DNA from: Bacteroidales bacterium
GTDB lineage: Bacteria > Bacteroidota > Bacteroidia > Bacteroidales > UBA932
DNA length: 19,547 nt
Direction of reading: 5' to 3'
Assembly: GCA_017615135.1 (NCBI GenBank)
Contig: JAGAAU010000243.1
Location: 1 to 19,547, forward strand
Part shown: positions 1,706 to 17,512 of the stretch, piece after piece
Layout: the number at the start of each line of letters is the position of its first letter
Numbering within the stretch: the stretch's first letter is position 1
Program-made: the position numbers and the translations under genes
Notes under the pieces: model-generated
Told to the model about the DNA's origin: nothing
What the model saw: the letters and a program-made list of their open reading frames with translations, nothing else
Databases searched by the model: none

Positions 1706-1942
1706 ATGGCACGCACGAAAAAGAAAAAGTATTCCGGAGTAGACCCTGCATATATTGAAAAGCAGAAAGACTCTCTGAAAAGGAAAAACCGCAAGACCGT
1801 GTTTCTTAACGGTCCGGAGCTTGCCGCCCTCGACGAATATTGCAAACGCTTCAAGGTAACGTCCCGTTCCGCGCTCATCCGTAATGCGCTCATGAAGCAT
1901 ATCCTCACGGAACTCGACAAAAATCAGCCCACACTCTTCTGA
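1706..1942 (+). CDS. Small ribbon-helix-helix-like (putative DNA-binding) protein
   Basis: The 78-residue protein begins with a very basic segment (MARTKKKK) and has a second basic stretch around 25-30. The C-terminal half reads as a beta strand (KTVFLNGPELAALDEYC) followed by two helices (VTSRSALIRNALMKHIL), the pattern of CopG/Arc-type ribbon-helix-helix DNA-binding proteins. The frame is open upstream to 1430, but that extension runs inside the DUF5106-like gene and is not credible; 1706 is the first ATG after that gene ends. The stop and the sigma-factor start share one base (TGATG), which indicates coupled translation. A regulator of the locus is an inference from context; it could also be a small conserved protein of unrelated function. 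Confidence 0.7.
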   Translation: MARTKKKKYSGVDPAYIEKQKDSLKRKNRKTVFLNGPELAALDEYCKRFKVTSRSALIRNALMKHILTELDKNQPTLF

Positions 1943-2481
1943 TGGGCGAAATATCATCACTGGTTCGCGAAATGGGGAAGGGGTCTGTTGACGCCTTCGA
2001 CCGCCTGTATCTGATATTCAGACCAAAGGTAGACAAAGTAGTTGGGTCCATTATCGGAGGAGGTGTATCCAACTATAATATGGTGAACGACATAGCTCAG
2101 AACATTTTTCTGAAAGTATGGAAAAACCGGGCTCAGATTGCATCTACGGTCCGGGACTTCGATGCATATCTGTTCAAAATGACAAAGAATGAGGCCCTGC
2201 TTTTCCTGTCTCGATACAGAATGCCTTTCGACGACCTTCATGACAATATTCCCGCATTGTCGCCCGACGACATTCAGCTTTCCGTCGAGGCAAGAGACCT
2301 GCAAAAAAGAGTTGCCGCTGCGGTAAAGCTGTTACCTCCGCAACAGCAGCGCGTATTTGAGCTCAGCCGTATAAACCAGCTTTCTTATATAGAAATCGCC
2401 CAGGCCCTTGACATTTCACCCAAAACTGTGGAAAACCATCTCTCGAGGGCGCTTAAAGATATCAAAAAAACTATCAGTTAG
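1942..2481 (+). CDS. ECF RNA polymerase sigma factor (FecI-like)
   Basis: This is a 179-residue extracytoplasmic-function sigma factor. Region 2 spans about residues 13-90, with the core-binding and -10 recognition helix visible as NDIAQNIFLKVWKNR. Region 4 spans about 120-176 and has the typical LPPQQQRVFELSR...LSYIEIAQALDISPKTVENHLSRAL helix-turn-helix. The gene is followed by a FecR-type anti-sigma gene and a SusC carrying an STN domain, the classic Bacteroidota cell-surface signalling arrangement in which the sigma factor is held inactive until SusC binds its ligand. It probably directs transcription of the downstream genes; its own promoter sequence cannot be recognised by eye. Confidence 0.93.
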   Translation: MGEISSLVREMGKGSVDAFDRLYLIFRPKVDKVVGSIIGGGVSNYNMVNDIAQNIFLKVWKNRAQIASTVRDFDAYLFKMTKNEALLFLSRYRMPFDDLHDNIPALSPDDIQLSVEARDLQKRVAAAVKLLPPQQQRVFELSRINQLSYIEIAQALDISPKTVENHLSRALKDIKKTIS

Positions 2482-2497
2482 ACTGGGGGTTTTTTCG

Positions 2498-2505
2498 TAT
2501 TTTTG
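2498..2505 (+). promoter_or_regulatory. Isolated -7 box (TATTTTTG) ahead of the anti-sigma gene
   Basis: TATTTTTG matches the Bacteroidota -7 consensus TAnnTTTG exactly and sits 14 bases before the fecR-like start in the only sizeable gap (38 bases) between sigma and anti-sigma genes. I see no good TTTG about 20 bases upstream, and a start site here would leave a leader of under ten bases. It may be a weak extra promoter that sets the anti-sigma level separately, or chance in a T-rich stretch. Confidence 0.25.
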
Positions 2506-2519
2506 CATCTTTATAAGGT

Positions 2520-3383
2520 ATGGATGCAAAACAACAAATTGGCGACCCTCTATGGAAAATCTGGTGCGAGACGGAAAGCGCCTCGGCCGGGTCTGTCTTT
2601 GAGGACGACCTGCGGATGATTCATCGTTCGATGGACATTCCAAAATCCAGCCCGAACTCACGCAGAAGATGGATTTTCGGCTTTGCGGCTGCCCTCGCCC
2701 TGCTGTTCATAACGGGCGGAGAATATTTTATCCTCAGAAAAGGCACACAAACCGTAGAGACGGTTTCGCTCATAACCTCGCCCGATTCCAAGGGAGAATT
2801 TTCACTTCCAGACGGCTCGCATGTGTGGCTGAATTCATCTTCATCGCTTACCTATAACAAATCCAACCCGCGCCTGGTAAAGCTGGACGGGGAGGGGTTT
2901 TTCGACGTGGCAAAGAAAGACGGCCAGGAATTCGTGGTAAAATCCGGAACAATCTCTGTAAAAGTGCTCGGAACCAGGTTCAACGTCAGAAACAGCAGTC
3001 ACTTCGACTATGAGGAGGTATCCCTCGTCAGCGGAAAGGTAGAAATCGAGAGCGGAGAACGCACAGAAATCCTTTCCCCCGGAGAAAGGGCGGAGATTAC
3101 CGCCGGAGCCATCGAAACAAAAAGCGCCGATGTTACCTTTGATTCAGCATGGATAGGCAGGGAACTAGTGTTCGACAATGTGGCCCTCTCGGACATCCTC
3201 ACCAGCCTGGAACATTGGTACAACGTGAACATCCGGGTAGCTCCCAGTGTAAATCAGGAATCCAGGCTGTCGTTCAAAGTGCGGAAAGAATCCCTGGCCG
3301 AGACAGAGAGAATCATCACCCGCATTACCGGATATCGTTTCAAAACTCTCGATACACATAATATAATTATTACAAGACCATAA
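2520..3383 (+). CDS. FecR-family anti-sigma factor
   Basis: The protein is 287 residues and spans the inner membrane once. Residues 1-50 are cytoplasmic and would bind the ECF sigma factor; residues 51-71 form the transmembrane helix after an RRR cluster. The periplasmic part has the FecR core at about 90-190 (FSLPDGSHVWLNSSSSLTY, GEGFFDVAKKDGQEFVV, VKVLGTRFNVR) and a C-terminal STN-like/DUF4974 domain at about 215-287 (FDNVALSDILTSLEHWYNVNI), the part expected to touch the SusC signalling domain. An in-frame TAA at 2514 fixes 2520 as the first possible ATG. The cytoplasmic segment is rather short for this family. The susC start follows the stop after 9 bases. Confidence 0.93.
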   Translation: MDAKQQIGDPLWKIWCETESASAGSVFEDDLRMIHRSMDIPKSSPNSRRRWIFGFAAALALLFITGGEYFILRKGTQTVETVSLITSPDSKGEFSLPDGSHVWLNSSSSLTYNKSNPRLVKLDGEGFFDVAKKDGQEFVVKSGTISVKVLGTRFNVRNSSHFDYEEVSLVSGKVEIESGERTEILSPGERAEITAGAIETKSADVTFDSAWIGRELVFDNVALSDILTSLEHWYNVNIRVAPSVNQESRLSFKVRKESLAETERIITRITGYRFKTLDTHNIIITRP

Positions 3384-3392
3384 TATAATAAC

Positions 3393-6300
3393 ATGTTCAA
3401 AAAACTCTCATTGTTAACTGTCGTTGCAGTATTTGCCCTGAGCGTTTCAGCCTGGGGGCAAGTGCGGCAGATTACCATAGGCGACGAGACCATGACGGTG
3501 CGGGAGCTTCTTAAAGAGGTTGAACGCCAGTCTGGAATCACTTTCGCCTATGACAATTCCGACGTAGACCTGGGCGCCGTAGTTCAGGGGAAGGCAAACA
3601 AGGAAGATGTTCTGCCCTACCTCAACAGGGTGCTCGCAGCTCAGAATCTCAAGGCCCAGATGGATGGCACGAGGATCTTCCTGAAGAAAATCCCTGCCAC
3701 CGCCGAAGCTCCGGCTACTCCCAAGAAAGTGGCCAAAGGATTGAACGGCACCGTTAAAGACGCCGCCGGAATTCCGCTCATAGGAGCCACGCTTCAGGTG
3801 CAGGGAACGCAAACTTACGCCATTACCGATCTGGACGGGGCATTTTCCCTGAAAGGACAGAACGCGGCTTACAATCTTATCGTATCCCTCCTGGGATATA
3901 AAACCCAGACTGTCCCATGTTCTCCGGAAACTACCGTGCTGGATATCGTGCTGGAAGAAGAAACATCCTTCCTGGACGAGGTGGTGGTTGTGGGATACGG
4001 TTCCCAGCGCCGCGAACTCCTGACCAACGCCATTACCAAATTCAAGCCCGGAGAAGATAATATCAGGCAGGCTCTGAGCCCCTCTGAACTGCTTCAGGGC
4101 AGGGTTGCCGGTATGACGGTGTCCACCCAGTCCGGTAACCTCGGAACCGCCGAACGCGTAAGCATCCGCGGCTCGGCATCGCTCAACGCCAGCAACGAAC
4201 CGCTGTACGTTCTGGACGGAATTCCCCTGAACAACAGCGCCGGTTCCCTGTACAGTTACGGCGAAGACCTGAGCTCCCTGTCGGTGCTGAACCTTTCGGA
4301 CATCGAGTCCATTGAAGTGTTGAAAGATGCCGCATCGGCCGCAATTTACGGTTCCCGAGCCACCAACGGCGTCATCCTCATCACCACCAAGAGCGGCCGG
4401 GACGGAAAGGCGGAAACCAAGGTATCCTACAACTTCGGTATAAACACCTTCCCCAACAGGAACAGGGTAAAATATACAGACTCCGCATCCTGGGTTAAGG
4501 TTTACAATGCAGGTGTAGACAATTACAACGCGCAGATGGGGTACACCGTTGCGGATGCTGCTTTCCAGTCCCACGTGATGAATCCCTACGAAGGCCTTCC
4601 CGATACCGACTGGCTGGGTCTGATTACCCGCCCGGGGCTTTTCCACAACGTGGACGCTTCGTTCTCCGGCGGCACCAAAAAGACCAAATATTACATCGGC
4701 GGCTCCTACCGTTCGGAAGAAGGTATCATCAAGACCAACGACATCCAGAAGGGCAACCTCAAGGTGAACGTGAGCAGCGATATGACCAAATGGCTCACTG
4801 TAGGGTCCAACCTTAGCGGAAACTTCATCAGGACTAACCGCGTTCCCGGAGCCAATCTTGGTTCTACTGCGATTGCCCGTGCAGTTGAGCAGCGCCCCTT
4901 CGACCGTCCGTTCAAGCCAGACGGCAGCTATTACCTAGGCGGAACTGATGAACTGACCAGACACAATCCCGTGCAGCTGATGACGGAATCCACTTCCTAC
5001 GTAAACAACTACCGCTTCCTGGGCAGCCTGTTCGCTGATGTGCATCCCCTCGAGGGGTTGAACATCAAGGTCTCTTACAGCACGGACGCCAGCTACACCC
5101 TGGATTACATTTATTACAATGCAAATCACCCGTACTGCGAAGACAACGGCCGAATAATCGAGAAGAACCGCTTCTTCATCTCCCACCTGCTGGAGACCTT
5201 CGCGAACTATCAGCATAAATTCGGAGATTTCGACTTCAACGCCATGGCCGGTCATTCCTTCCAGAAGACCACCAACCGGAACAACAGCATCGATGCGCAG
5301 AATTTCCCCTCTACGTCTTTCGACACGGTGGGAAGTGCGGCCGTATTTTCCGGAGCGAGCGGCGGAATCGGCGAATATGCCATCGAATCCTGGTTCGCCC
5401 GCGCAGGCCTGTCCTGGAAAGACCGTTACGTACTCACCGCCACGATGCGTGCCGACGGTTCCTCCCGCTTTGCACCCGCGCACCGCTGGGGCTTCTTCCC
5501 CAGTGTCTCCGCCGGATGGAACATTTCAAAGGAACCATTCTGGAAATGGTCTTCAACGGACCTGAAATTCCGCGCCAGTTACGGTAAGACCGGCAACCAG
5601 GACGGAATCAGCAATTACGGCTGGCAGGCCAGCATAGGTTCGGGTGCAAACTACGACGAGGTGAGCGGCATATCGGTAACCTCCAACGGAAACGAGAACC
5701 TCACCTGGGAAACTGCAGACCAGTACGACTTCGGATTCGACCTTTCCTTCTTCAAGGGCAAACTCGGAATTATTTTCGACGCTTATTTGAAGAATACCTA
5801 CAACCTGCTGTATTCCAAGCCTACGGCATCTACAACCGGCTTCACATCACTTACCAGCAACATCGGCTCCATGCGCAACTATGGATTCGAGCTTACGCTG
5901 GACGGCCACGTGGACATAGGTCCCGTCAAATGGGATACCTCGCTCAACATTACACACAACAAGAATGAGCTCACTTCCCTGCTCAACAAGGAGATAATTT
6001 CCCTTAACAACTACCATGCTTTGCAGGTAGGGCAGGAAGTCGGCGCCTTCTACCTGTATCAGTTCGACGGCATTTACCAGTATGACGGAGAAGTGCCTGC
6101 ACCCCAGTACGAGTTGGGCGTGCGCGCCGGAGACGTGAAATATCACGATTTCAACGGCGACGGAATCATAAACGACAAAGACCGTATTATAGTGGGCTCT
6201 CCCAATCCCTACCTTTCCGGCGGTTGGAGCAACACCTTCAAGTATAAGGGCATAGAATTGGGAATCTTCCTCACCTATTCCCTCGGAAATCAGGTTTATG

Positions 6301-6707
6301 CCCTCTGGATGGCAGGTCCTACCCGTCTGGGCAACTACCAGGCCCTGCTGGATGAGTGGGCACAGCACTATTGGACCGGCCCCGGCAGCACCAACACCTA
6401 CCCCAGGCCCATCTATTCGCTGCATGGGCAGAACTGCAAGGCGGCCACCAATTACCTGAAGGACGGCTCCAACATCCGCCTGTCTTCGGTATCCCTCGGG
6501 TACAGCTTCCCGGCCAACCTGACAGACAAGATGCATATCAAGGGGCTGAGGGTATATGTTCAGGGTGAAAACCTGGCGCTCATTTCCCGCTATCCCGGCT
6601 GGGATCCGGACATTTCCACCAGTGTGGATCCGTCCCTTATCGGCGTAGACAACTACGGAGTGCCCCGTTCTACGGTTTATAAAATGGGTGTAACCCTTAA
6701 ATTCTAG
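3393..6707 (+). CDS. SusC/RagA-family TonB-dependent outer-membrane transporter with STN signalling domain
   Basis: The 1104-residue protein is a complete SusC-type TonB-dependent transporter. In order: signal peptide (1-22, SAWGQ); STN domain (about 25-100, with VRELLKEVERQSGITFAYD), the marker of transporters that signal to FecR; carboxypeptidase-regulatory-like domain (about 116-190, GTVKDAAGIPLIGATLQVQG, then DLDGAFSLKG); the family motif EVVVVGYG at 196-203; the plug (about 205-335, PLYVLDGIPLN, IESIEVLKDAASAAIYGSRA, NGVILITTKSG); and a 22-strand-type barrel ending in Phe. It should act with the SusD lipoprotein encoded next, importing a ligand too large for porins while reporting its presence to the anti-sigma factor. 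The ligand cannot be read from sequence; the downstream NAGPA genes hint at a phosphodiester-containing glycan. Confidence 0.96.
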   Translation: MFKKLSLLTVVAVFALSVSAWGQVRQITIGDETMTVRELLKEVERQSGITFAYDNSDVDLGAVVQGKANKEDVLPYLNRVLAAQNLKAQMDGTRIFLKKIPATAEAPATPKKVAKGLNGTVKDAAGIPLIGATLQVQGTQTYAITDLDGAFSLKGQNAAYNLIVSLLGYKTQTVPCSPETTVLDIVLEEETSFLDEVVVVGYGSQRRELLTNAITKFKPGEDNIRQALSPSELLQGRVAGMTVSTQSGNLGTAERVSIRGSASLNASNEPLYVLDGIPLNNSAGSLYSYGEDLSSLSVLNLSDIESIEVLKDAASAAIYGSRATNGVILITTKSGRDGKAETKVSYNFGINTFPNRNRVKYTDSASWVKVYNAGVDNYNAQMGYTVADAAFQSHVMNPYEGLPDTDWLGLITRPGLFHNVDASFSGGTKKTKYYIGGSYRSEEGIIKTNDIQKGNLKVNVSSDMTKWLTVGSNLSGNFIRTNRVPGANLGSTAIARAVEQRPFDRPFKPDGSYYLGGTDELTRHNPVQLMTESTSYVNNYRFLGSLFADVHPLEGLNIKVSYSTDASYTLDYIYYNANHPYCEDNGRIIEKNRFFISHLLETFANYQHKFGDFDFNAMAGHSFQKTTNRNNSIDAQNFPSTSFDTVGSAAVFSGASGGIGEYAIESWFARAGLSWKDRYVLTATMRADGSSRFAPAHRWGFFPSVSAGWNISKEPFWKWSSTDLKFRASYGKTGNQDGISNYGWQASIGSGANYDEVSGISVTSNGNENLTWETADQYDFGFDLSFFKGKLGIIFDAYLKNTYNLLYSKPTASTTGFTSLTSNIGSMRNYGFELTLDGHVDIGPVKWDTSLNITHNKNELTSLLNKEIISLNNYHALQVGQEVGAFYLYQFDGIYQYDGEVPAPQYELGVRAGDVKYHDFNGDGIINDKDRIIVGSPNPYLSGGWSNTFKYKGIELGIFLTYSLGNQVYALWMAGPTRLGNYQALLDEWAQHYWTGPGSTNTYPRPIYSLHGQNCKAATNYLKDGSNIRLSSVSLGYSFPANLTDKMHIKGLRVYVQGENLALISRYPGWDPDISTSVDPSLIGVDNYGVPRSTVYKMGVTLKF

Positions 6708-6711
6708 GAGG
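6706..6711 (+). promoter_or_regulatory. Strong Shine-Dalgarno AGGAGG that decides the susD start
   Basis: A perfect AGGAGG overlaps the susC stop codon (TAG at 6705-6707). It lies 8 bases before the ATG at 6720 but only 2 bases before the in-frame GTG at 6714, so ATG 6720 is the likely start. Such a strong site is uncommon in Bacteroidota, where most genes in this window have none, and suggests that SusD translation is set high and tied to SusC termination. Confidence 0.65.
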
Positions 6712-6719: not shown

Positions 6720-7994
6720 ATGAAAAAGATATTCGTAATTTTTCTCATGACAGCCCTGGCCTGTTCCTGCAACAAGATGCTGGAGTTGTATCCCCACTCC
6801 GCAGTCGCCCCTGAAACGATAACGGAAAGCGACATCCCCCAGCTAAGGGTTGGAATGTACTGGATGGTACAGGAGCAGCCCGGCCGTACTTCGTACATAA
6901 TCGAAGACATGCTCGGAGGCAACCTTACCCAGAAAAACAGCACCAGCACCATAGCCCTTATCAACAGCATACTGAACGCCCAGAGCGACATCGTATTCGA
7001 TGCCTGGAAGGGCGCTTACAAGTCTCTTTATCAGGTAAACAACGTTTACAGCATAGCAGAACGGCTGCCCGAGGGCGACCTTCGCAACCAGGTGCTTGGA
7101 GAGGCTTCCTATTTCCGCGCCTACATCTACATCCAGCTGGTTACGCGCTGGGGAGACGTACCGCTGCTCACCCGCAATACCGTGGAAGACGTTCCCCGCA
7201 CCAAGGCCGCTCTGGTATGGGACCAGATTATGAAAGACCTCGACAATGCCATAGCCCTGCTTGGCGACAATACCAAGGTCCATTATGTTTCCCAGGATGC
7301 CGCAAAGGCTCTCAAGGCCCGCGCACTGCTGTTCACCGGAGAAAAAGTGAAAGCCGCTCAACTGGCGGACGAACTGATTGCCAAACCCCGTTATGCCCTG
7401 GATTCCTTTGAGAACATCTACCGCAACGACAGGGACACTGAGACTATCTTTGAGTTCAAATGCGCTACCGCAGACGGCTCCAATATCACTCTCAGCAATC
7501 TGTTCTATTCATATAACCATCCGAACAAGGGAACATATTCGTATATGCCCGCTCCGGATGTAATGACTCTGTTTGAAGAAGGCGACAAGCGCAAGGAAAT
7601 CACCGTCACTACGCTGGACGGCCTGAATTTCATCAATAAATATCCCAGCGGCCAGACCGGGACCGATCCGTTCATAGTCTCCCGCCTGGCGGAGATGTAT
7701 CTCATCAGCGCCGAGGCCAAGGGAGTGGACGGCGGACTGGGCCTGTTGAACGAGCTCCGTACGAACAGAGGCCTGGAGGCCATATATCCTTCAACTGAAA
7801 GGGCTTTCCAGAATGCCGTAATGCTGGAGCGCCGCCGCGAGTTCGTTGCGGAAAATATGCGCTTCACAGATCTGGTGCGCACCGGACGTGCCGTAGAAGA
7901 ACTCGGCATACAGGAGTATCAGCAGCTGCTCCCCATCCCGGAGAGCGAGCTTCAGAACAATGCACTGTTAAGGCCCCAGAACCCGAATTATTAA
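6720..7994 (+). CDS. SusD/RagB-family outer-membrane lipoprotein
   Basis: This is the surface glycan-binding partner that closes over the SusC barrel. The protein is 424 residues from the chosen ATG (GTG at 6714 would add two). It has a lipoprotein signal peptide ending ACSCNKMLELYP, the usual SusD beginning; either of the two cysteines could be the lipidated one. Family landmarks are EASYFRAYIYIQLVTRWGDVPLLT, WDQIMKDLDNAI, YLISAEAKG and the C-terminal ERRREFVAENMRFTDLVRTGRA. It is shorter than most SusD proteins (roughly 500 or more residues), so some ligand-side loops are reduced. The gene starts 12 bases after susC, and the next gene starts 4 bases after its stop. Confidence 0.95.
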   Translation: MKKIFVIFLMTALACSCNKMLELYPHSAVAPETITESDIPQLRVGMYWMVQEQPGRTSYIIEDMLGGNLTQKNSTSTIALINSILNAQSDIVFDAWKGAYKSLYQVNNVYSIAERLPEGDLRNQVLGEASYFRAYIYIQLVTRWGDVPLLTRNTVEDVPRTKAALVWDQIMKDLDNAIALLGDNTKVHYVSQDAAKALKARALLFTGEKVKAAQLADELIAKPRYALDSFENIYRNDRDTETIFEFKCATADGSNITLSNLFYSYNHPNKGTYSYMPAPDVMTLFEEGDKRKEITVTTLDGLNFINKYPSGQTGTDPFIVSRLAEMYLISAEAKGVDGGLGLLNELRTNRGLEAIYPSTERAFQNAVMLERRREFVAENMRFTDLVRTGRAVEELGIQEYQQLLPIPESELQNNALLRPQNPNY

Positions 7995-7998
7995 TGGT

Positions 7999-8895
7999 AT
8001 GAAAAAGACTGTTATCATATTGCTGACAACCCTTGCGGCCATATCGTGCCGCACGGGAGATGTGTTTGAACAGGCTCCATATTCGCTGGAGACATCTACG
8101 AGGATGGCCGGGGAAATTGTAAACGGAACCACCGGTTACTTCGGACACATCAAAAACGACAAGGTGACCAACCTGGCACAGGGAGTGAGCCTTCTGGATC
8201 TGAGCTACCTGAATATGAACGGGTACGCGATGCAGCTGTATATGTACAAGGTGGTGCTTGGCAGCGCCACCCTGGCCGTGGCAGTTCCTGCAACAGATAA
8301 GAAAGCCGACCTTACCAGCGCCCTGGCCGCCAATCTGAACAACGAGACCACCGTTCTCGGAGCCGTTAACGGCGACTCCCAGGCTGCGGACAAAGCTGCA
8401 GCCGGAATCGTCTATCGAAACGGAACCGCGGTCAAATCTACATTCTCGGACGACAAGGGCGGATTCTTCGCCACCCTGAAGGACGGCACTGCAGTTATTG
8501 CAGACCAATCCGACTATGGCACGTACCGTAGTTCTCTGTTTAATGCCATCGGCACCCGCGACCGCATCCTGACGGACGGATATCCCATAATGGAAGACAA
8601 ACCTGCCGGCGCTGCCCGCACCTTCGTTGCGGTCTCTCAGGACGGAATGACCGTATGGCTGGGTGTCGTGGACGGAGTGTATTTTTACTACTCCAACGGA
8701 ATCTCCCGCAGCGACCTTGCCGCCGTGCTCAAGGCAGCCGGTGCCTGGAACGCTTCGTTGCTCAATTCCGGAGCCGTAACCACGCTTGTAAAACGTGACG
8801 ACCTGGGCGAGACACTCTTCCCCGTCATCAATCGACCTTCCCAGAAAGGGATTGAGATGGAAACCGTGAACGCCCTGGCCATCGTAGCAAACTAA
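7999..8895 (+). CDS. NAGPA/DUF2233-domain lipoprotein with degenerate active-site motif
   Basis: The 298-residue protein has a lipobox signal peptide (LAAISC, Cys17) and one NAGPA/DUF2233 domain, the fold of the phosphodiester alpha-N-acetylglucosaminidase that uncovers mannose-6-phosphate in animals. Recognisable parts are AVNGDSQ at 122-128 (VNGDFF in active members), YRNGTAVKS (139-147), ARTFVAVSQDG (206-216) and VVDG (223-226). The hallmark NLDGGGSST segment is replaced by LLNSGAVTT at about 254-262, losing the conserved Asp and most glycines. It aligns along its length with the C-terminal domain of the protein at 13169-14650, which keeps the motif, so it looks like a diverged paralogue and perhaps a binding pseudoenzyme. 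It follows SusD directly, the usual slot for surface glycan-binding lipoproteins. Confidence 0.8.
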   Translation: MKKTVIILLTTLAAISCRTGDVFEQAPYSLETSTRMAGEIVNGTTGYFGHIKNDKVTNLAQGVSLLDLSYLNMNGYAMQLYMYKVVLGSATLAVAVPATDKKADLTSALAANLNNETTVLGAVNGDSQAADKAAAGIVYRNGTAVKSTFSDDKGGFFATLKDGTAVIADQSDYGTYRSSLFNAIGTRDRILTDGYPIMEDKPAGAARTFVAVSQDGMTVWLGVVDGVYFYYSNGISRSDLAAVLKAAGAWNASLLNSGAVTTLVKRDDLGETLFPVINRPSQKGIEMETVNALAIVAN

Positions 8896-10676
8896 TGGAC
8901 ATTATGAGAAAAGGTATATTGATACTGAGTCTGGCCGCCATTGGCCTGACCGGCTGCCTCAAAGATTATGAGGATACTTCTTTTGTCCCCCAGCCTGCCG
9001 TTATTTCCTGGTCTGAGGAAAGCATGGCTGTAACCAAGGATGCCACCACCTTTGAAATAACTCTCCACAGCAACCTTCCCTGGATGGCTGTCTCCAGTGC
9101 AAGTTGGATCAGCGTTACCCCGGACCGGGGCCTTGGAGACGCCGTTCTTACTGTTAAGGTGGCAAAAAACCGCACTGTAGAAGCCCGCAGCGCTTATCTC
9201 AGGGTGATAGTCACAGCAGACCAGTTCAGCGATTTCCCTGTAACACAGGCCGCAGCTGAAGGTGGCGACAGCAATATATACTATGTGCGCGCAGACGGTG
9301 ATCCGGAAGCGTCCGGACTTTCCTGGGCCAACGCCACTACCCTGCCCAATGCCATAGACCAGGCTTCGGACGGAGATGCCATTTATGTTGCGGCCGGTCT
9401 CTATACCCCCGGAAATTTCCTGGAGAACACAGACGGGACCGATCCCCGCGACAAGACCTTCCAGCTTCACAGCAACTTTACCCTTCAGGGAGGCTTCCCG
9501 GCCAATGCAGACGACGCATCCTTTGATCCGGTGGCCGACTACGACCCTTCAGTTAACGTGACCACGCTTTCCGGCACCATGGAAGACGGGAAGAGCGCCT
9601 ACCACGTACTGACTGCCACAGCTACAAAGGCCGAAGGCAAAATGATTGTGCTGAAGGGCTTCACCATCACCGGAGGCAAATCTGCCACGGAAGAATCTAT
9701 AGTTACCGTCAACGCCAGCACCTTCAAGAGGAGTCATGGAGCCGGCCTTAACGTAGGAGCTTCCAGGATGGAGATTTCAGACTGTATAATTACCGGCAAC
9801 GAGGCTGGACTGCATGCAGCCGGCGCCATTTTCAACGCAAAGTCTGAAATCAACATGACAGACTGCCGGGTGGTAAGCAACGAAGCCAAGAACAACTGCG
9901 GCGGCATATGGAACTGTGGCGGCACCCTTTATATGGACCGCTGCTCCATATCCGACAATATTGCCGGGCAGCAGGCCGCAGGGTATTACAGCATCAACTC
10001 AGACGGGGCTCCCAGCGTAAGCCGCATTTACAACTGCACCATTTCCGGAAATACCAACACTGCTACCGAGGGACGTTCAGGCGGCGGCGCATACATCCGT
10101 GAATGGTCCGATGCCGTATTTGTGAACTGCACGTTCTACGGCAACAAATCCGGCAACGGCGGCGGCATCCAGGGCTATGGCGCCAACGGCAAGAACTCTA
10201 CCCTCCGCCTTATCTGCTGCACCATTACCGGCAATAGCGCAACCGTACTGGGCGGCGGAATCAGCCTTTGGAACAACTACAACACCACCAATATCTACAA
10301 CTGCATCATTTCCGGCAACCAGTGCGTGGCCGGGGCAGATATCGGATACGGCTCAGCCATAACCGTAACGCCAAACCTGTTCTACGAGACTTCAATAGTC
10401 GGGAACTCCCTATATGCAACTACTGGTTCGGCAGTGGGAGGATGGAGCTTCGACCCCGCCTCAATGCTTTCCGAATTCGGCCTGTGGGGCGGAAAAACCC
10501 AGACTTGCACGCTTATCGAAGGAGCTTCCAACCCTGCCTGCTCTCAGGGCATGTCAAAAGAAGAACTCGTTGCCCTGGGCGGGAGCCTGTCACCTGCAGT
10601 GGAGGCTTCGGTCTTCGATACAGACCAGCGCGGCGTTGCACGCAATCAGAATACCATTGGATCAATAACACTTTAA
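8895..10676 (+). CDS. BACON-domain + right-handed beta-helix surface lipoprotein
   Basis: The protein is 593 residues. A lipoprotein signal peptide ends GLTGC (Cys21). Residues about 35-120 form a BACON domain (LPWMAVSSASWISVTP, AYLRVIVTADQFSDFPVTQ), a stalk or mucin/carbohydrate-association module in Bacteroidota. From about 127 it enters a parallel beta-helix: the entry sequence YYVRADGD...SGLSWANATTLPNAI is typical of Pmp-like and DUF1565-like proteins, followed by repeated rungs such as DCIITGNEA, NCTISGN, NCTFYGNKSGNGGGI, CCTITGNSA and NCIISGN. No catalytic pair of a polysaccharide lyase can be assigned by eye, so adhesion is as likely as enzymatic activity. The start overlaps the previous stop (TAATG); ATG 8904 is an alternative that leaves the signal peptide intact. 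Confidence 0.85.
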   Translation: MDIMRKGILILSLAAIGLTGCLKDYEDTSFVPQPAVISWSEESMAVTKDATTFEITLHSNLPWMAVSSASWISVTPDRGLGDAVLTVKVAKNRTVEARSAYLRVIVTADQFSDFPVTQAAAEGGDSNIYYVRADGDPEASGLSWANATTLPNAIDQASDGDAIYVAAGLYTPGNFLENTDGTDPRDKTFQLHSNFTLQGGFPANADDASFDPVADYDPSVNVTTLSGTMEDGKSAYHVLTATATKAEGKMIVLKGFTITGGKSATEESIVTVNASTFKRSHGAGLNVGASRMEISDCIITGNEAGLHAAGAIFNAKSEINMTDCRVVSNEAKNNCGGIWNCGGTLYMDRCSISDNIAGQQAAGYYSINSDGAPSVSRIYNCTISGNTNTATEGRSGGGAYIREWSDAVFVNCTFYGNKSGNGGGIQGYGANGKNSTLRLICCTITGNSATVLGGGISLWNNYNTTNIYNCIISGNQCVAGADIGYGSAITVTPNLFYETSIVGNSLYATTGSAVGGWSFDPASMLSEFGLWGGKTQTCTLIEGASNPACSQGMSKEELVALGGSLSPAVEASVFDTDQRGVARNQNTIGSITL

Positions 10677-10680: not shown

Positions 10681-13179
10681 ATGAAAAAGTACATCCTTTT
10701 CTTTTCGATGGCCACTGCAATGGCCCTTGTGTCCTGTAATCCTACCAATCCCGAAGAAGAGTTCGGTAAGAAGGACCTGACAATCAAAGCATCGATTGAA
10801 ACTTCCAAGGCTGCCGTTGGCGCAGAAGGCATTACCTGGACGGCTGGAGATGCCATCCTTGTAAGCTGCGACGGCGAGGCCTACAACTTCACCACTTCCC
10901 AGGCCGGAGCGACCGCAGATTTCACCTCCTCCGAAGGCCTTACCCAGGCAATGGTAGGAATCAATCCGCTGACGGCCTATTTCGGCTGTACTCAGTTCGG
11001 TGCCTTTACCATCCAGCAGAACCAGACCATTTCCGGCGGCGAGAGCCAGACAAAGCTCCCGATGTATGCCTATACGGCTACAGCTCCGGAAAAGGCAGTT
11101 GTCTCCATGGTTTTCATTCCGGCGGCCTCTGTGCTTGAGGTTTCCATCTCTTCCGCCGACATCACCCTTAACAAGGTTGAGTTCGCGCCAGTGGAAGAGA
11201 CCGCTGTAGTAGGTAATGTAGCCGGCGCCGGCAATGTAAATCCCATTACCGGCAATGTAACCTTCAGCGGCAACCTGAAAAGCGTCAGCGCCAACTTCCC
11301 CGGCGGCGTAAGCCTGAAGAACGGATATTCCTTCCGTATGCCCATAGGCTGGTTCTCCGTTACCGGAGGCATGAAACTGGTACTTACCTACAACGAAACC
11401 TCCACCTACGAGGAAATACTCTGGGATGCCGAGACCTTCCAGTCCTATTCCGGAACCGCCGAGGCAAAAGCCTATAAATTCGTTCCTATAAGCCTGGAAC
11501 TGGTTATGGGTGCCCGCGACTACTATGTTGCCCCCAACGGTAAGGTTTCTTCCAAGGGTATCCGCGAAAGCGACCCCACCACTCTTGATTATGCACTTGC
11601 TTCCGCCGACGCAGGTTCCACCATCCACCTGGCTGCCGGTAACTATATGCCTTCCCGGAACATTGCAGGAGACATTACCGGTGATGCAGCCCACAAGACC
11701 TTCGAGATTTCCCGCGGCCTTACTCTCATAGGAGCCGGCAAAAGAGAAACCGTCCTGGAGGCAGACGGAGCCTTCCATGTAGTATCCGTAACCGCCCCTG
11801 CCGAGTCGAAAGTCGTATTGAAAGACCTTACTATCATGGGAGGAGACAATTCAGCTGCCGAGGAAGATGCCAATGTGGAGTCTCCGGTGAACGGGAGATC
11901 CTATTCCGACGGATATGGCGCCGGTCTCATCGCTATTGGAGTAGAACTCGGGCTGGAAAATATCCTTATAGACCAGAATAACGGCAGGAATGCCGTCGGC
12001 GCTTATATTAACGACTGCAAGGCTACCGTAAAGAGCATTGAGGTAACCAACAACACTTCTTCCGGCAACGGCACAGGATTCTGGGCATCAGCCAGCGAAC
12101 TTACCATGGACGACTGTATAATTGGCGGTAATTTTGGCGAGGGTGTTGCTACCGGTCTCTATATTTATTCTGCAGCCGAAACTGCATGCTCCGCCGTTGT
12201 AAGGAACTGTAAGTTCGATTCCAACGAAACGAGCAAGAATAACGTCGGCGTATATGTGCGCGGAGCTGATGCATCAGCAAATGTCTCTGCAACATTCACC
12301 AATTGCGCAATAACAAGAAACAAGGGCAACATGGGCAGCAGCTTTGGCGTTACCTATGCTACCGTACTGTTCGACAACTGCCAGATATCAAACAATATCA
12401 GTAGTGGAAACGGTGGCTCTCTGGTATATCCCGGAGCTAAAGTTACAGTTAAGGATTGTATATTCCGCGAGAATAAGGCAACCCTCGGCGCTGCCATTTA
12501 TGAGTATACCAATGGGGATGCGGTTGAGCTGACCATTCTGAATTCCGAGTTCTCCGCCAATACCACCAACGGCCGTGGCGGAGCCATCTATGCGCGTGCC
12601 GGTGCGGCTTCAGGCGTTTCGCTGAATGTCGCCAACTCCACCTTCTTCAGCAACGAGGCCGCCTCTACCGGAAGCGCCATAGCGCTTTATGGCTCGGCTA
12701 CATTCCCCGTCAAAGCCAACATTTACAGCAGCACCTTTACCGGAAACATCTGCACCCGCAACAAGAACGACGTAGGCGGAGCCATCGGACTCGAGACCGC
12801 AGGGCTTGAGGCCAATATTTACAACTGTGTGCTGGCCGGCAATATCTGGGAGGCCAACAAGGCTGCCGCAGACGTCTTCGTCAAGGCGGGTAATGTCTTC
12901 GTTTCCAGGAGTGTCGTAAATACAGCCGTCTATGCTGGAGATAATACAGTAGATACAGGAGCTCCTGCATTCAACGCCGCAACCATGCTTTCCAAGAAAG
13001 AAGCCGAAGGCAAGACCACTGTATTCAGTCTGACCGGCTCTGACAACCCTGCCAGGACACTCGGTCTTGACGTACCCGGACTTAAGGAACTGAAAGCAAC
13101 CATTGATAATTCCATTCTCGAAAAAGACCAGTGGGGCAATGCCCGCACCGGTGCCGTAATGGGAGCATATGTGGAATAG
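10681..13179 (+). CDS. Fimbrillin-like domain + Pmp-type beta-helix surface lipoprotein
   Basis: This 832-residue lipoprotein (lipobox LVSC, Cys19) has two parts. Residues about 32-272 resemble the fimbrillin-like (Mfa-like) N-terminal domain: a SKAAVGAEGITWTAGDAILV segment, a GNVxGxGNV region and KFVPISLEL at the end. From about 278 (DYYVAPNGKVSSKG) it becomes a right-handed beta-helix with many short rungs; the C-terminal half has GGAI- and FxxN-like tetrapeptides (SEFSANTTNGRGGAIYA, STFFSNEAASTGSAIAL, STFTGN, DVGGAIGL) as in chlamydial polymorphic membrane proteins. It is a sibling of the preceding beta-helix protein with a different stalk. A surface adhesin or glycan-binding role is inferred. 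The stop lies 11 bases inside the next gene. Confidence 0.85.
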   Translation: MKKYILFFSMATAMALVSCNPTNPEEEFGKKDLTIKASIETSKAAVGAEGITWTAGDAILVSCDGEAYNFTTSQAGATADFTSSEGLTQAMVGINPLTAYFGCTQFGAFTIQQNQTISGGESQTKLPMYAYTATAPEKAVVSMVFIPAASVLEVSISSADITLNKVEFAPVEETAVVGNVAGAGNVNPITGNVTFSGNLKSVSANFPGGVSLKNGYSFRMPIGWFSVTGGMKLVLTYNETSTYEEILWDAETFQSYSGTAEAKAYKFVPISLELVMGARDYYVAPNGKVSSKGIRESDPTTLDYALASADAGSTIHLAAGNYMPSRNIAGDITGDAAHKTFEISRGLTLIGAGKRETVLEADGAFHVVSVTAPAESKVVLKDLTIMGGDNSAAEEDANVESPVNGRSYSDGYGAGLIAIGVELGLENILIDQNNGRNAVGAYINDCKATVKSIEVTNNTSSGNGTGFWASASELTMDDCIIGGNFGEGVATGLYIYSAAETACSAVVRNCKFDSNETSKNNVGVYVRGADASANVSATFTNCAITRNKGNMGSSFGVTYATVLFDNCQISNNISSGNGGSLVYPGAKVTVKDCIFRENKATLGAAIYEYTNGDAVELTILNSEFSANTTNGRGGAIYARAGAASGVSLNVANSTFFSNEAASTGSAIALYGSATFPVKANIYSSTFTGNICTRNKNDVGGAIGLETAGLEANIYNCVLAGNIWEANKAAADVFVKAGNVFVSRSVVNTAVYAGDNTVDTGAPAFNAATMLSKKEAEGKTTVFSLTGSDNPARTLGLDVPGLKELKATIDNSILEKDQWGNARTGAVMGAYVE

Positions 13180-14650
13180 GATTATACTGATTTTTGCCGC
13201 CCTCTGGCTTCTCCTCTCCTGTGAAAACGGAGGAGCCGGGGATCCGGCGGCTATAGCCTTTGCCCAGAACCCGCTGATGGTAAGTTGCGACGCTGCAGTG
13301 GTGGATTGCGGGCTCATCTGCAATGCATCCTGGACAGCAAGTTCCAAAGACGGCTGGGTTACGGTACTTACCCCGGACGGCAAGTCGGGCGATGCTCTGA
13401 AAGTCCGGGTAAGTGCGAACAATGATGTGGCAGACCGCAATGCCACCGTTACCGTTAAGGCGGGAAATGCCGGGAAGGTACTCCAGCTGGTGCAGTACGG
13501 CAGCGCCACTTCCGGTTTTGTATCGGAAACCAGCGTCCATCTGGACACTTACGGAACCGCCACCTACATCTCCATCAATACGGACGGAGAGTGGACATGG
13601 ACCGCAAGTTCCGCAGAGTGGCTTACGCTGGAGAAGAAGGGGCCTGCGGCTCTGGGGATATCGGCCGAAATCAATTTCACCGGAGAGTCCAGAAGTGCCG
13701 GCTTCACCGTAAGCTCCGCAGACGGTAGCCGAAGGGCTGAAGTTACAGTTACCCAGGAATTCAGCAACGAAAAATTCCTGGCCTCCACTGATTTCGGACG
13801 CAGGTTCGTATACGCAGCCGGCAGCTACATCAAGAGCGTGTCGGCAGACAGCTATAAACAACTGGCAGACGGAATAGAAAGCTTTGAAATGAGCTGTACC
13901 CTGCAGGATGGGCTCGGCGGGGAAACCTCGCCCAGGAAGCGCAATATCTATCTCTTCAAGGTGGATATGACGAAGGCTACCATCCTGGTCACCCTGCCCG
14001 ATGACAATAACGCCAACCTGCACACCACTCAGCAGATGTCCTCACAGCTACCGGCCCTTCAGAAAAAGCGCTCAGGCCTGACCGTTTATGGCGGCACCAA
14101 CGGGGATTTCTTCTATGAAGACTCCAGCGGTTCAAACACCTACACCCTTCAGGGCTGTCTATACCGCGGGGGAACCTGCCTGAAAAGCGACTTCTACCAG
14201 GCCACCAACACTGTCTTCGCAGTGTTTAAGGACGGTACGGCCAAATGCATGAGCATGGCTGCATACAATGCTTCCATCTCCCGTATTCAGGAAGCCATCG
14301 GCGGCCGCCAGCATCTGATTAAGGACGGCGTTACTATGGAATTCACAGATAACAGCCAGCACCCGCGCACAGCCGTAGGAACCAGCGCAGACGGGAAAAC
14401 CGTATGGATGCTGGTGGTGGATGGCCGCGACGAGCTGTACGGCACGGGCTCCTTCAGCGTAAGCTATGAAGTGCTGGCCCGTATCCTGAAGGCTGCCGGG
14501 GCCTCCGACGCCATCAATCTGGACGGCGGCGGTTCCTCTACCTATGTAGTACGGGAAAGCAACGGTTCCTTCACCCGACGCAACAAACCTGCCAACGCAG
14601 GCCGCACGGAACGCAAGGTGCTGGACGGTCTTGCCATAGTTAAATCCTAA
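13169..14650 (+). CDS. BACON-BACON-NAGPA lipoprotein, intact phosphodiester glycosidase motif
   Basis: This 493-residue lipoprotein (lipobox LLLSC, Cys18) carries two BACON-like domains (about 30-110 and 113-196; the second contains TDGEWTWTASSAEWLTLEKKG and ends VTVTQ) and a full NAGPA/DUF2233 domain (about 235-493). The domain has every landmark: GGTNGDFFY (308-316), HPRTAVGTSADG (398-409), LVVDGR (415-420), the hallmark NLDGGGSST (450-458) and the C-terminal ERKVLDGLAIV. It is the best candidate in the locus for a working phosphodiester alpha-glycosidase, likely displayed at the cell surface on a BACON stalk. The substrate is unknown; family precedent is GlcNAc-1-phospho-6-mannose. Translation starts inside the 3' end of the beta-helix gene. 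Confidence 0.9.
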   Translation: MWNRIILIFAALWLLLSCENGGAGDPAAIAFAQNPLMVSCDAAVVDCGLICNASWTASSKDGWVTVLTPDGKSGDALKVRVSANNDVADRNATVTVKAGNAGKVLQLVQYGSATSGFVSETSVHLDTYGTATYISINTDGEWTWTASSAEWLTLEKKGPAALGISAEINFTGESRSAGFTVSSADGSRRAEVTVTQEFSNEKFLASTDFGRRFVYAAGSYIKSVSADSYKQLADGIESFEMSCTLQDGLGGETSPRKRNIYLFKVDMTKATILVTLPDDNNANLHTTQQMSSQLPALQKKRSGLTVYGGTNGDFFYEDSSGSNTYTLQGCLYRGGTCLKSDFYQATNTVFAVFKDGTAKCMSMAAYNASISRIQEAIGGRQHLIKDGVTMEFTDNSQHPRTAVGTSADGKTVWMLVVDGRDELYGTGSFSVSYEVLARILKAAGASDAINLDGGGSSTYVVRESNGSFTRRNKPANAGRTERKVLDGLAIVKS

Positions 14651-14664
14651 TAATAAGGATATCA

Positions 14665-14793
14665 ATGATAATTAAGAGTTTATACTTCTCCCCGGAGGTT
14701 GAATCGATAACGGTCGACGACCTCTCTGTACTTTGTTCTTCACAAGGAAACACCCAAGGTTACGAATACGATGAAAGCTATGTTCTTGAATAA
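14665..14793 (+). CDS. 42-residue small protein between the NAGPA genes
   Basis: An ORF of 42 codons fills the gap between the two large NAGPA genes. It starts at ATG 14665, 5 bases after an AAGGA (14655-14659), which is a better ribosome site than most genes here have, and its stop (TAA 14791-14793) lies inside the start of the next gene, as at most junctions in this operon. The product begins MIIKSLYFSPEVESITV, continues through DLSVLCSSQGNTQGYEYDE and has no signal peptide. The layout (aromatic-x-Pro near the N-terminus, hydrophobic strand, then a Cys/Ser-rich LCSSQGN and an acidic tail) resembles small unnamed peptides I recall beside fimbrillin and surface lipoprotein genes in Bacteroidales. 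Function unknown. Alternative: non-coding leader with a fortuitous ORF. Confidence 0.6.
   Translation: MIIKSLYFSPEVESITVDDLSVLCSSQGNTQGYEYDESYVLE
14695..14724 (+). promoter_or_regulatory. Stem-loop inside the small ORF, upstream of the double-NAGPA gene
   Basis: GAGGTTG (14695-14701) pairs with CGACCTC (14718-14724) with one G-U wobble, and TCGA (14704-14707) pairs with TCGA (14714-14717), leaving a 2-base AA bulge and a 6-base loop (TAACGG). This is an 11-bp hairpin in a 30-base span. No uninterrupted T-run follows, only T-rich sequence, so it is not a standard terminator. It could modulate or protect the transcript between the two NAGPA genes. Confidence 0.4.
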
Positions 14794-17512
14794 AGCAACC
14801 ACGCTCCTGGCGTGCGTATCGCTACTGCTGGGACTTTCCTCCTGTGTCAGGGAACTGAACGACACAACAATCACAAATGACAGCACTACCCTCAGCGCCG
14901 GTATTCAGCAGGTGGAACCCGAGGGGAAGACCTCCCTTTCAGAAGGCGTGAACGTACTCTGGACGGAAGGCGATGCCATTCGCGTGTACAATGCAGATTT
15001 TTCATCTTCCTCTTCCGCAGTGGCCAGGTCTTCCGGGTCTTACTCTCTGTTCGATCTGGAAACCTCCATTTCCGGCGACGGCTTCTGTGCGGTATATCCT
15101 GCAAGTGCCAGCTCTCCCGCCGGCGGTGATGCCTTCGCATCCAGTGCAGGCGCAGCTGCCGAGGGCTATGCGCTGAGGACGCGCAATATAGTATTCTCTA
15201 CGCAGAGGGCTGTTGCAGACGGCTTCGACCCCGCCAGTACGCCTATGGCTGCCGTCAAGGGGAGCAATGCCGCATACACTTTCGTGAACTTTGCCTCACT
15301 TCTGCAGTTTACACTCGCAGGAAACGGCATAGCCAGCGTTGTAGTGGAAAGCAACAAGGGCAACGTCAAGCTTGCCGGTTCATTCCTGGCAGACTGCGCC
15401 GATTCCAACTCCGACGGAGTGCTGGACAGCTTTTCTTTCAGTGACGATCCCTCGGAAGTGGATGGCTCCGCCACCATCACCCTTCTTCCCCCTGCCGGCT
15501 CTTCAGTATTTGCACCCGGGACCTATTACGTAGCAGTCCGTCCGGATATTACAGTTAACGGCGGCATCAGGCTCACTTCCTACGACGCAACAGGCAATCC
15601 CATGCGCACTCTGGCAGGCACTGCCAACGTTACGCTCAACCGCGGAAAAATCAGGCCGCTGGGTTCATTGGCAGTGGGAAGCGACCTGGAGCGTCTCCAG
15701 GCATGCTCCGCCGTGAGCTCAATCACCCAGCTTTCTACCCGCACCCTCGCAACCGGCATCCAGCATACCGATTATCAGGTTACCTGGACGGCACATGACG
15801 GGCTGGCATCTGAAGTTGCGCTGATGCACGTAGTGCGCTTCGACAGGGAAAAGGCTACAGCCGCAGGCGCGAAAATCCGCACCCTGAACGCTTTCAACGG
15901 CGTTGGCGTGGTGTACGACGGAAGCGACAACACCTATACCCGTCAGACCATCCGCAATATGATGATTTGCGCCGATTCCAAGGAAGAAACAGTGGTATTC
16001 GGCACAGGAGCATCCTTCAACGACAACGGAACCCCTAACGGCCCCATGCACAAAGACGGAGTCATATTGTACGACCAGGTGAAGGTTACCTCCCGCACAA
16101 TGGCCGGCGTGAAGGCAGATAACACAATGTATATAGGCTACCAGACCAACTGGACAAACTGGACTGAAGCCCAGAGAGCCAACTATACAGATTTGAACGA
16201 CGCCAGCTTCCTGGCCGTGAACGGCGGAAAAGTCCAGACAAGCCTAAACAACAATACCCGTTATGGCATTTCCGCCGAAGGCTACACCGTACGCGGCAGT
16301 GTCAACGGCGATATCTATTTCGTAGTTGTGGATCCTTCCGGATATGGGTCAAATACTTCCTGCGGAGCAACCTACAGGGAAGTGGCATACATCATGCAGG
16401 CACTCGGCTGTGAACGTGCAGCCTACGGCCAGAGTGGAGTCACTACAGCCATGTGGGCCCGCAATCCGCAGTCGCACATCCTGGAGCCTCTGGGAGACGG
16501 TAACTTTGACAGCCGGCCTCTGGCGGCCTGGGGTATTACCGTACCCGGAAAGAGCTATACTTCCGTACGTGACGCCATTGCCGCTTCAGCGGTCGTCAAA
16601 TCGGTCAATTCCTCATCCGAAACCACTGTAAGGCCTGGCTGCTCATATACCAAAATGAGCCTTACCATGAGTCTGCCGTACAACACGGCCCAGAACTTTA
16701 CCGGCAATGACATGGGGGATAAACTCAACATATGGGTGCTGAGGGTGGATCCGGCCGCAGCCGGCATGTCCGTCAAAGTGCTGATGAAAAACGATTCATA
16801 CACTGCAAACGCATCATCGTTCGGCACTGACCGTCTGGATAACATGGCCAAGGCTTATGTAGACCATACCGGCAAACAGCCGCTGATTGTCATTAACGGC
16901 GACTTCTACGAAACCAGCTCCCCCTACAATCCCGTAGGTCCGGTGCATGCACGCGGAAAGGCCGTCAGAACAAAATGGGCCAGCGCGGAGCAGAAGGGAC
17001 GCTCATTTATAGGAATCAGGAGCGACAACACCATCTACATCGGAGATAAGGATGAATATTCCTCATCGCTCACTTCCACTTATCCCGAACTGATGGGAGC
17101 CGGACTCATGTTCCTCAAGGACGGTAAATTCAACCCTTCTTATGTGGCCTCAACCGGACACTGGGTAGGCTCTGAAAACTCCTACATCGGCAAATATAAC
17201 TGGCCCGGTGCCAGCCATCCCCGTATGTCCATGGGTTACGATGACAATGGTGTCATATATGTAATCTGCGCGGACGGCCGCAATGCCGGCACTTCAAAGG
17301 GTGCCTGCTATGTGGAACTGTGCGAGATGTTCAAGAGTCTTGGCTGCGTGCGTGCAGTTAACCTGGACGGAGGCAAATCCTCACAGTTCATAAAGTGGAA
17401 TTCAGGCACCAGTTACTCCATCCTCAACGACCCTCGAGACGACGACAAGCCCGTAGGGACGCAGATGAAGTGGCGGGCGGTATCAGACGGTTTTGCTTTT
17501 GTAGCAGACTAG
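14771..17512 (+). CDS. Fimbrillin-like + double NAGPA/DUF2233 lipoprotein
   Basis: This 913-residue lipoprotein (lipobox GLSSC, Cys25) has a fimbrillin-like domain at about 40-300 (GKTSLSEGVNVLWTEGDAIRVY; RGKIRPLGSL near its end) followed by two NAGPA-type domains. The first (about 325-590) is degenerate: it keeps GPMHKDG (424-430) and VVVDP, but GTGASFND replaces VNGDFF and YGQSGVTTA (552-560) replaces NLDGGGSST. The second (about 615-913) is close to canonical: VINGDFYE (707-714), GPVHARG, HPRMSMG (816-822), CADGR (833-837) and NLDGGKSSQF (864-873), where Lys replaces the third Gly. So one protein may pair a binding domain with a catalytic one. ATG 14780 is an alternative start; both overlap the small ORF. 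A strong terminator follows 10 bases after the stop. Confidence 0.88.
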   Translation: MKAMFLNKATTLLACVSLLLGLSSCVRELNDTTITNDSTTLSAGIQQVEPEGKTSLSEGVNVLWTEGDAIRVYNADFSSSSSAVARSSGSYSLFDLETSISGDGFCAVYPASASSPAGGDAFASSAGAAAEGYALRTRNIVFSTQRAVADGFDPASTPMAAVKGSNAAYTFVNFASLLQFTLAGNGIASVVVESNKGNVKLAGSFLADCADSNSDGVLDSFSFSDDPSEVDGSATITLLPPAGSSVFAPGTYYVAVRPDITVNGGIRLTSYDATGNPMRTLAGTANVTLNRGKIRPLGSLAVGSDLERLQACSAVSSITQLSTRTLATGIQHTDYQVTWTAHDGLASEVALMHVVRFDREKATAAGAKIRTLNAFNGVGVVYDGSDNTYTRQTIRNMMICADSKEETVVFGTGASFNDNGTPNGPMHKDGVILYDQVKVTSRTMAGVKADNTMYIGYQTNWTNWTEAQRANYTDLNDASFLAVNGGKVQTSLNNNTRYGISAEGYTVRGSVNGDIYFVVVDPSGYGSNTSCGATYREVAYIMQALGCERAAYGQSGVTTAMWARNPQSHILEPLGDGNFDSRPLAAWGITVPGKSYTSVRDAIAASAVVKSVNSSSETTVRPGCSYTKMSLTMSLPYNTAQNFTGNDMGDKLNIWVLRVDPAAAGMSVKVLMKNDSYTANASSFGTDRLDNMAKAYVDHTGKQPLIVINGDFYETSSPYNPVGPVHARGKAVRTKWASAEQKGRSFIGIRSDNTIYIGDKDEYSSSLTSTYPELMGAGLMFLKDGKFNPSYVASTGHWVGSENSYIGKYNWPGASHPRMSMGYDDNGVIYVICADGRNAGTSKGACYVELCEMFKSLGCVRAVNLDGGKSSQFIKWNSGTSYSILNDPRDDDKPVGTQMKWRAVSDGFAFVAD

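Follow-up and report, generated by a model that had tools for sequence, protein, structure and literature searches.

A SusCD locus with four NAGPA domains and two beta-helix lipoproteins, and its relatives within a Bacteroidales genus

Organization of the locus

The DNA analysed here is one whole contig of 19,547 bp (JAGAAU010000243.1, our C172; hereafter the window) from the incomplete genome of a Bacteroidales bacterium (1.51 Mb in 249 contigs, 62% complete). Its plus strand carries, in this order, genes for an RHH-like protein, an ECF sigma factor, a FecR anti-sigma factor, a SusC transporter, a SusD lipoprotein, the NAGPA-domain protein NAGPA1, the beta-helix proteins BH1 and BH2, and two further NAGPA-domain proteins, NAGPA2 and NAGPA3/4 (Table 1). 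We conclude that the locus is a real, conserved SusCD variant, undescribed in the literature searched. Judged from open reading frame (ORF) coordinates, the genes are tightly packed: RHH overlaps ECF, NAGPA1 overlaps BH1 and BH2 overlaps NAGPA2, and the gaps measure 38 bp (ECF-FecR), 9 bp (FecR-SusC), 12 bp (SusC-SusD), 4 bp (SusD-NAGPA1 and BH1-BH2) and 120 bp (NAGPA2-NAGPA3/4). This order, with the same gene identities, strand and close spacing, had been proposed in a sequence-only reading of the window, and the ORF coordinates together with Pfam and TIGRFAM matches bear it out. The four NAGPA domains counted in that reading were likewise recovered: Pfam PF09992 scores above its cut-off in four domains across three genes, and a scan of the whole genome places the same four. 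So was its statement that glycoside hydrolases, lyases and sulfatases are missing, as no such family was detected among the locus genes (Pfam, E≤0.01) and NAGPA is the sole enzyme-type family.

Table 1. Features of the locus, with positions in the window and the matches on which the assignments are based
Feature	Position	Strand	Evidence or remark
Inverted repeat TGCCATAT/ATATGGCA	1691..1711	no strand	perfect 8-bp arms (8-pair stem) over the RHH start codon
RHH-like small DNA-binding protein, 78 aa	1706..1942	+	RHH_1 19.1 bits, under cut-off 20.5
ECF sigma factor	1942..2481	+	Sigma70_r4_2 7.2e-17; TIGR02985 3.7e-32; TIGR02937 above its cut-off
FecR anti-sigma factor	2520..3383	+	FecR 7.4e-15; FecR_C 1.2e-12
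SusC/RagA TonB-dependent transporter, weak STN domain	3393..6707	+	TIGR04056 5.3e-256, 852.6 bits
SusD lipoprotein	6720..7994	+	SusD-like_3 1.3e-19; SusD_RagB 3.7e-16
NAGPA1 lipoprotein, NLDGGGS lost, NAGPA fold kept (predicted)	7999..8895	+	Pfam NAGPA E=5.6e-19
BH1 lipoprotein: BACON + right-handed beta-helix, pectate-lyase-9-like fold	8895..10676	+	
BH2 lipoprotein: beta-helix, BH1 paralogue	10681..13179	+	27% identity, E=2e-22 to BH1
NAGPA2 lipoprotein: 2x BACON + NAGPA, all family motifs	13169..14650	+	NAGPA E=2.4e-32; 3ohg E=2.3e-29
NAGPA3/4 lipoprotein, two NAGPA stretches	14771..17512	+	Pfam NAGPA E=3e-40

With its SusC, SusD and downstream lipoproteins and its upstream ECF sigma factor and FecR, the locus resembles a SusCD polysaccharide utilisation locus under ECF/FecR control; unlike such a locus, it offers NAGPA in place of any glycoside hydrolase, lyase or sulfatase family. 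The signalling cassette recalls the FecI/FecR/FecA type, and its ECF and FecR components are clear, the former matching TIGR02985 at 111.8 bits (cut-off 126.4). The other two components claimed for it are weaker than had been supposed, since the RHH match lies under its cut-off and the STN domain on the SusC N-terminus reaches 18.4 bits against a cut-off of 28.4 (E=0.002). Lipoprotein status of SusD and all the operon's proteins encoded behind it was judged by eye from N-termini in which a hydrophobic stretch runs into a cysteine; this cysteine does not vary among 27 NAGPA1-type and 26 NAGPA2-type sequences.

SusD and NAGPA genes are neighbours in most of the loci mapped in the genus

Relatives of the window's SusD were sought at E≤1e-40 in a sample of 400 genus genomes taken from a larger group. 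Four SusD candidates, or eight NAGPA candidates, were scored per genome, so that the counts across the 400 genomes are lower bounds. The search gave 69 matches in 55 of the 400 genomes, and all 69 loci were mapped with a gene caller, a NAGPA profile (107 of 120 listed proteins) and BLASTP against the window proteins. The gene following SusD on the same strand encodes NAGPA in 51 of the 69. That SusCD and NAGPA belong together, as the sequence-only reading held, is thus upheld by genome co-occurrence. SusCD homologues without NAGPA, which would speak against such a tie, give a mixed picture: an adjoining NAGPA is absent from 18 loci (at one of these, L159, the contig ends), of which 16 are distant (SusD identity 30-39%) and two stand at 46%. 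Above 45% identity, 16 of 18 loci have the adjoining NAGPA, and the two without it, L114 and L115, carry a NAGPA gene upstream of FecR on the opposite strand.

The upstream half of the locus is widely shared: a SusC match lies no more than four genes ahead of susD in 66 of the 69 loci, and a FecR match in 61. Two loci close to that of the window, L103 and L108, are without a FecR match, and genes of 732 and 541 aa precede SusC instead. An RHH match appears only in the window, L147 and L149 in the printed maps, which show four upstream genes.

The beta-helix genes, which the sequence-only reading put at the core of the operon, do not belong to the general layout of the group. BH1 is found in 16 loci, window included, all of which have the adjoining NAGPA, and this recurrence of the order SusC-SusD-NAGPA-BH1 in 16 of 69 mapped loci exceeds chance. 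BH1 is followed by a BH2 match in 12 loci and BH2 by a NAGPA2-type gene in 11; L102, L107, L110 and L113 end at contig edges, and L054 lacks BH2. A full-length counterpart of NAGPA3/4 (over 55% identity over 900 aa) occurs among the mapped loci in L100 and L101 only. In the other main branch (SusD identity 35-43%) the place of the beta-helix genes behind NAGPA is taken by TIG/NHL propeller proteins and Exo_endo_phos, according to Pfam scans of L055 and L057.

A FastTree phylogeny of SusD, taken at its branching order without support values, comprised 66 of the 69 loci, the SusD of Sphingobacterium sp. SGG-5 (see below) and three remote SusD sequences. A NAGPA-free sub-clade (L059, L132, L133, L136, L137, L139, L143-L146, L148 and L158) is nested among NAGPA-bearing loci, as are L114 and L115, which makes loss the simpler reading; L159, too short for the tree, was grouped with this sub-clade. 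Adjacency can be called basal only outside the outermost branch (L060, L157 and L160), where SusD is likewise without an adjoining NAGPA. Taken together, the gene maps and the tree suggest that SusD-NAGPA adjacency is old within the window's SusD group and that a sub-clade and a side branch lost it later. The single NAGPA-free member scanned, L059, carries genes for a GDSL esterase, TIG/NHL and GH3 proteins on the opposite strand. One locus that sits with the NAGPA-free sub-clade, L134, has a SusD-adjacent NAGPA with a decayed motif (ASLGNGEY), and may represent an intermediate.

The association is also visible when NAGPA domains are counted genome-wide. NAGPA is common in the genus (at least 279 of 400 genomes). 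Ten genus genomes, all picked because each holds a SusD relative, contain 30 NAGPA domains between them (nine of the ten have at least one), and at least 19 of these domains have a same-strand SusD gene upstream at a distance of no more than 10 kb. By hand arithmetic, about 1.4 of 30 would be expected by chance from some 201 SusD matches in some 22 Mb. The window itself accounts for four of the 19, and window-type SusD genes for another five; with window-type loci set aside, at least 10 of 21 NAGPA domains are still downstream of SusD. The window's own genome (G000; 1.5 Mb, incomplete) contains ten NAGPA domains, and two more of its SusD genes, on C182 and C79, have NAGPA downstream. Elsewhere in it (L073, 4143-8234), a gene for a DUF4886 protein with a GLUG stretch at the cut-off directly adjoins a NAGPA gene.

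NAGPA1 has lost the NLDGGGS motif, NAGPA2 has kept it

The sequence-only reading had treated the four NAGPA domains as a set of working enzymes, which the motifs do not support. NAGPA2 alone retains the whole family set (NGD, PRT, DGR and NLDGGGS, present as TNGDFF, HPRTAVG, VVDGRD and INLDGGGSST), and NLDGGGS, which we take to be part of the NAGPA active site and which is seen here as a conserved motif, is kept at the NAGPA2 position in 11 of 11 loci, window included. The window's NAGPA1 still shows VNGD, ART and VVDG, and has LLNSGAV in place of NLDGGGS. All 14 NAGPA1 loci (window, L100-L112) are without this last motif, the replacing letters varying between sub-branches. NAGPA3 has lost NLDGGGS as well, and NAGPA4 reads DGGK for DGGG and RM for RT. 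Among SusD-adjacent NAGPAs elsewhere, those of L054, L113 and the Sphingobacterium locus L164 keep NLDGGGS, and DGGG is kept in 34 of 35 others, with L134 as the exception.

NAGPA1 is maintained under purifying selection in spite of its lost motif, and its fold is predicted to be preserved. Its dN/dS of 0.11-0.19 (four pairs) is comparable with the 0.13-0.17 of NAGPA2 (three pairs), values to be read in the light of dS near saturation for both (1.0-1.9). The predicted model of NAGPA1 (pLDDT 89) matches best to 3OHG, with TM scores of 0.81/0.84. This structure, BACOVA_00430 of Bacteroides ovatus, is a DUF2233/NAGPA protein and the closest solved sequence to both NAGPA1 and NAGPA2; unlike it, NAGPA1 is without NLDGGGS and NAGPA2 has two BACON domains. 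Vertebrate NAGPA enzymes, which share motifs with NAGPA2 and the fold with NAGPA1, are remote (16-17% identity over the fold). In a domain tree rooted at its midpoint and taken without support values, NAGPA1 sits on a long stem within the large group that also contains NAGPA2 and the enzyme of L164.

The simplest account of these sequence patterns is that NAGPA1 is probably a former enzyme turned non-catalytic glycan binder: a motif-bearing enzyme beside SusD would have been retained as a probably non-catalytic binder in the window's branch, the motifs being retained in the BACON-fused NAGPA2. That NAGPA1 is still catalytic through other residues, an idea compatible with the other readings discussed below, appears very unlikely to us. 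In its favour, the window copy retains VNGD and VVDG and its fold is predicted to be preserved. The uniform loss of NLDGGGS, with letters that differ by sub-branch, argues against it, as does the failure to keep NGD in the nine loci whose SusD identity is 55-57% (two of which have gaps there).

Beta-helix proteins BH1 and BH2

A tie between the beta-helix and NAGPA proteins, posited from the window alone, is reinforced by a fusion protein, P0073, in which a BH1-type helix (35% identity over 455 aa, E=1e-62) and a NAGPA domain with NLDGGGS form one chain. In another fusion, P0075, a SASA-like esterase stretch (23.3 bits, below the cut-off of 24.8) is joined to NAGPA. As BH1 and BH2 are paralogues, the operon may be read as two NAGPA/beta-helix pairs in succession, NAGPA1-BH1 followed by BH2-NAGPA2.

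The fold of BH1 is similar to that of family 9 pectate and rhamnogalacturonan lyases (1RU4, 5OLQ; 16% identity). Foldseek alone gave BH1 TM scores no higher than 0.36 by query length among the rows examined. The site of these PL9 enzymes comprises calcium-binding acids and a catalytic lysine. We considered BH1 as a pectate-type lyase and rejected the idea: the fold fits, and the conserved residues give no support, the helix body (approximately residues 170-520) having no invariant Asp, Glu or Lys in 16 relatives and only a nearly invariant D217, as judged from conservation over 16 sequences.

The Pmp-like character noted for the helices is weak in BH2: its Chlam_PMP repeat scores 19.2 bits over the whole protein, below the cut-off of 20.6, and 21.7 bits for the C-terminal piece. 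This repeat, together with the position of NAGPA as the sole degradative enzyme family in the window, could fit lipoproteins that serve as surface adhesins or decoration, or that act on the cell's own exopolysaccharide, with SusCD merely co-regulated. Such a role seems to us quite unlikely, given NAGPA genes directly behind SusD in most of the mapped loci and in Sphingobacterium.

Occurrence outside the genus

When named genomes were scanned with the NAGPA2 alignment, at least 80 loci were returned, and ten of them were mapped. Among these ten, the order SusC-SusD-NAGPA-BH1 is found in L164 alone, from Sphingobacterium sp. SGG-5, taken for an isolate as its record bears no metagenome-assembled genome label. 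It comprises FecR, SusC (48% identity), SusD (51%), a NAGPA with NLDGGGS, BH1 (33%) and, 206 bp past BH1, a GH20 beta-N-acetylhexosaminidase (PF00728, E=7.4e-100). In L217 a BH1 relative (36%) accompanies a NAGPA match at the contig edge, and in L166 NAGPA lies ahead of a remote SusCD pair. A different NAGPA-SusCD type was observed in L241 (3053-17205), with an N-acetylglucosamine (GlcNAc) 2-epimerase, DUF5018, GHL10/DUF4985, BACON and a calcineurin-like phosphoesterase.

In broader searches only few best candidates were scored per genome, and the absences are accordingly soft. SusD at E≤1e-60 returned only the window itself among 395 genomes of the class (best four candidates per genome), P0073-like proteins at E≤1e-40 only the window's BH1 among 324 genomes of the order (best three), and BH1 at E≤1e-40 only the window and G312 among 299 genomes of the family (best four). 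The first of these results suggests that the window-type locus is rare across the class. The genus itself appears to have at least one ruminant-gut member (water buffalo colon).

The GH20 of the SGG-5 version and the GH3 of L059 are ordinary glycoside hydrolases, and they raise the alternative that the locus is an ordinary glycan-uptake SusCD system whose NAGPA fold serves to cleave or bind an alpha-linked sugar without phosphate, and that the phosphodiester idea is an artefact of the family name; 3OHG, the closest solved relative, is listed only as an uncharacterised DUF2233 protein. Against this, NAGPA2 retains the motifs common to vertebrate GlcNAc-1-phosphodiester enzymes, and the NAGPA-SusCD type of L241 has a phosphoesterase and a GlcNAc 2-epimerase nearby. 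We regard a plain-glycan locus as unlikely.

Flanking and other features of the window

Upstream and on the same strand lie coaD and a gene at 828-1685, the latter about 20 bp from RHH. The inverted repeat over the RHH start codon is a possible operator and candidate autoregulation site, of a class of stem-loop sites that is not commoner than in shuffled sequences. Promoter and terminator scans likewise gave sites no more numerous than in shuffles, and the operon ends were left unplaced for this reason. No tandem repeats were found in the window, and an Rfam scan returned a tRNA alone. This tRNA-Leu (CAG; 17572-17655) and a DUF3575 protein (17684-18247) lie behind the operon on the minus strand, as does a 435-aa ORF (18240-19547) that is open at the contig edge and contains a HECAH (HExxH-type) motif, with no Pfam match.

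A putative system for phosphodiester-linked glycans

The gene content, the adjacency of SusD and NAGPA, the motif loss, the purifying selection and the BH1-NAGPA fusion are observed directly, and fold retention is predicted. We lean towards the view that the locus belongs to a family of SusCD uptake systems dedicated to a glycan with sugar-1-phosphodiester links, in which NAGPA2 cuts and NAGPA1 binds. By analogy with FecI/FecR/FecA-type signalling, substrate occupying the STN-bearing SusC would cause the ECF sigma factor and FecR to switch the operon on; SusD, NAGPA1, BH1 and BH2 would hold the glycan at the cell surface, NAGPA2 would cleave the phosphodiester, and SusC would take the product in.

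Hints at the substrate come from relatives rather than from the window: the GH20 of SGG-5, which points to N-acetylhexosamine (HexNAc), the epimerase and phosphoesterase of L241, and GDSL esterases. Host phosphomannosyl glycans, fungal phosphomannan, teichoic acids and capsules are candidates, and we consider a HexNAc-1-phosphate glycan of a microbial capsule or cell envelope the most likely among them. A more specific proposal, which we put forward tentatively and consider rather improbable as a whole, is that a SusCD class recurring in one Bacteroidales genus, which includes ruminant-gut bacteria, serves for foraging on microbial phosphodiester glycans, be they teichoic-acid-like or capsular polymers of HexNAc-1-phosphate, NAGPA1 having turned into a capture protein and a duplicated enzyme/beta-helix pair doing the cutting.

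Several points weigh against a phosphodiester-dedicated system. The phosphodiester cleavage ascribed to these bacterial NAGPAs is carried over from the vertebrate enzyme, and the window encodes no enzyme to degrade the glycan further (Pfam, E≤0.01). Exo_endo_phos, tried as a diagnostic partner, also matches near SusD on contigs without NAGPA (G034:C21, G010:C131, G053:C67) and was dropped as evidence for phosphodiesters on that account. The SusD-adjacent NAGPAs of the sister branch keep DGGG, but many have NAD for NGD and PRN for PRT, so that their activity is not assured. The SusD relatives without an adjoining NAGPA include the outermost branch, and the 69 loci are not independent, as several genomes are close kin and many loci are near relatives (L143-L145, L123-L125, L118-L120). 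To these are added the selection of the ten genomes behind the domain count and the near-saturated dS.

A literature search for links between NAGPA/DUF2233 and polysaccharide utilisation loci found none, British spelling, subscription journals and preprints lying outside its scope. DUF2233 is the subject of a 2013 paper by Das et al. The arrangement is not described in the literature searched, including the portions consulted of PMC12024695 and PMC12419801, and DUF2233 and Bacteroides occur together in a Veillonella proteome paper.

If the phosphodiester interpretation is true, gut Bacteroidota possess loci of a class devoted to phosphate-linked glycans, which would serve as a source of both carbon and phosphate, and such loci would escape annotation that looks for glycoside hydrolases and lyases. 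The putative change from enzyme to binder beside SusD offers a testable case for the origin of surface glycan-binding proteins, and Sphingobacterium sp. SGG-5 may open this question to genetics.

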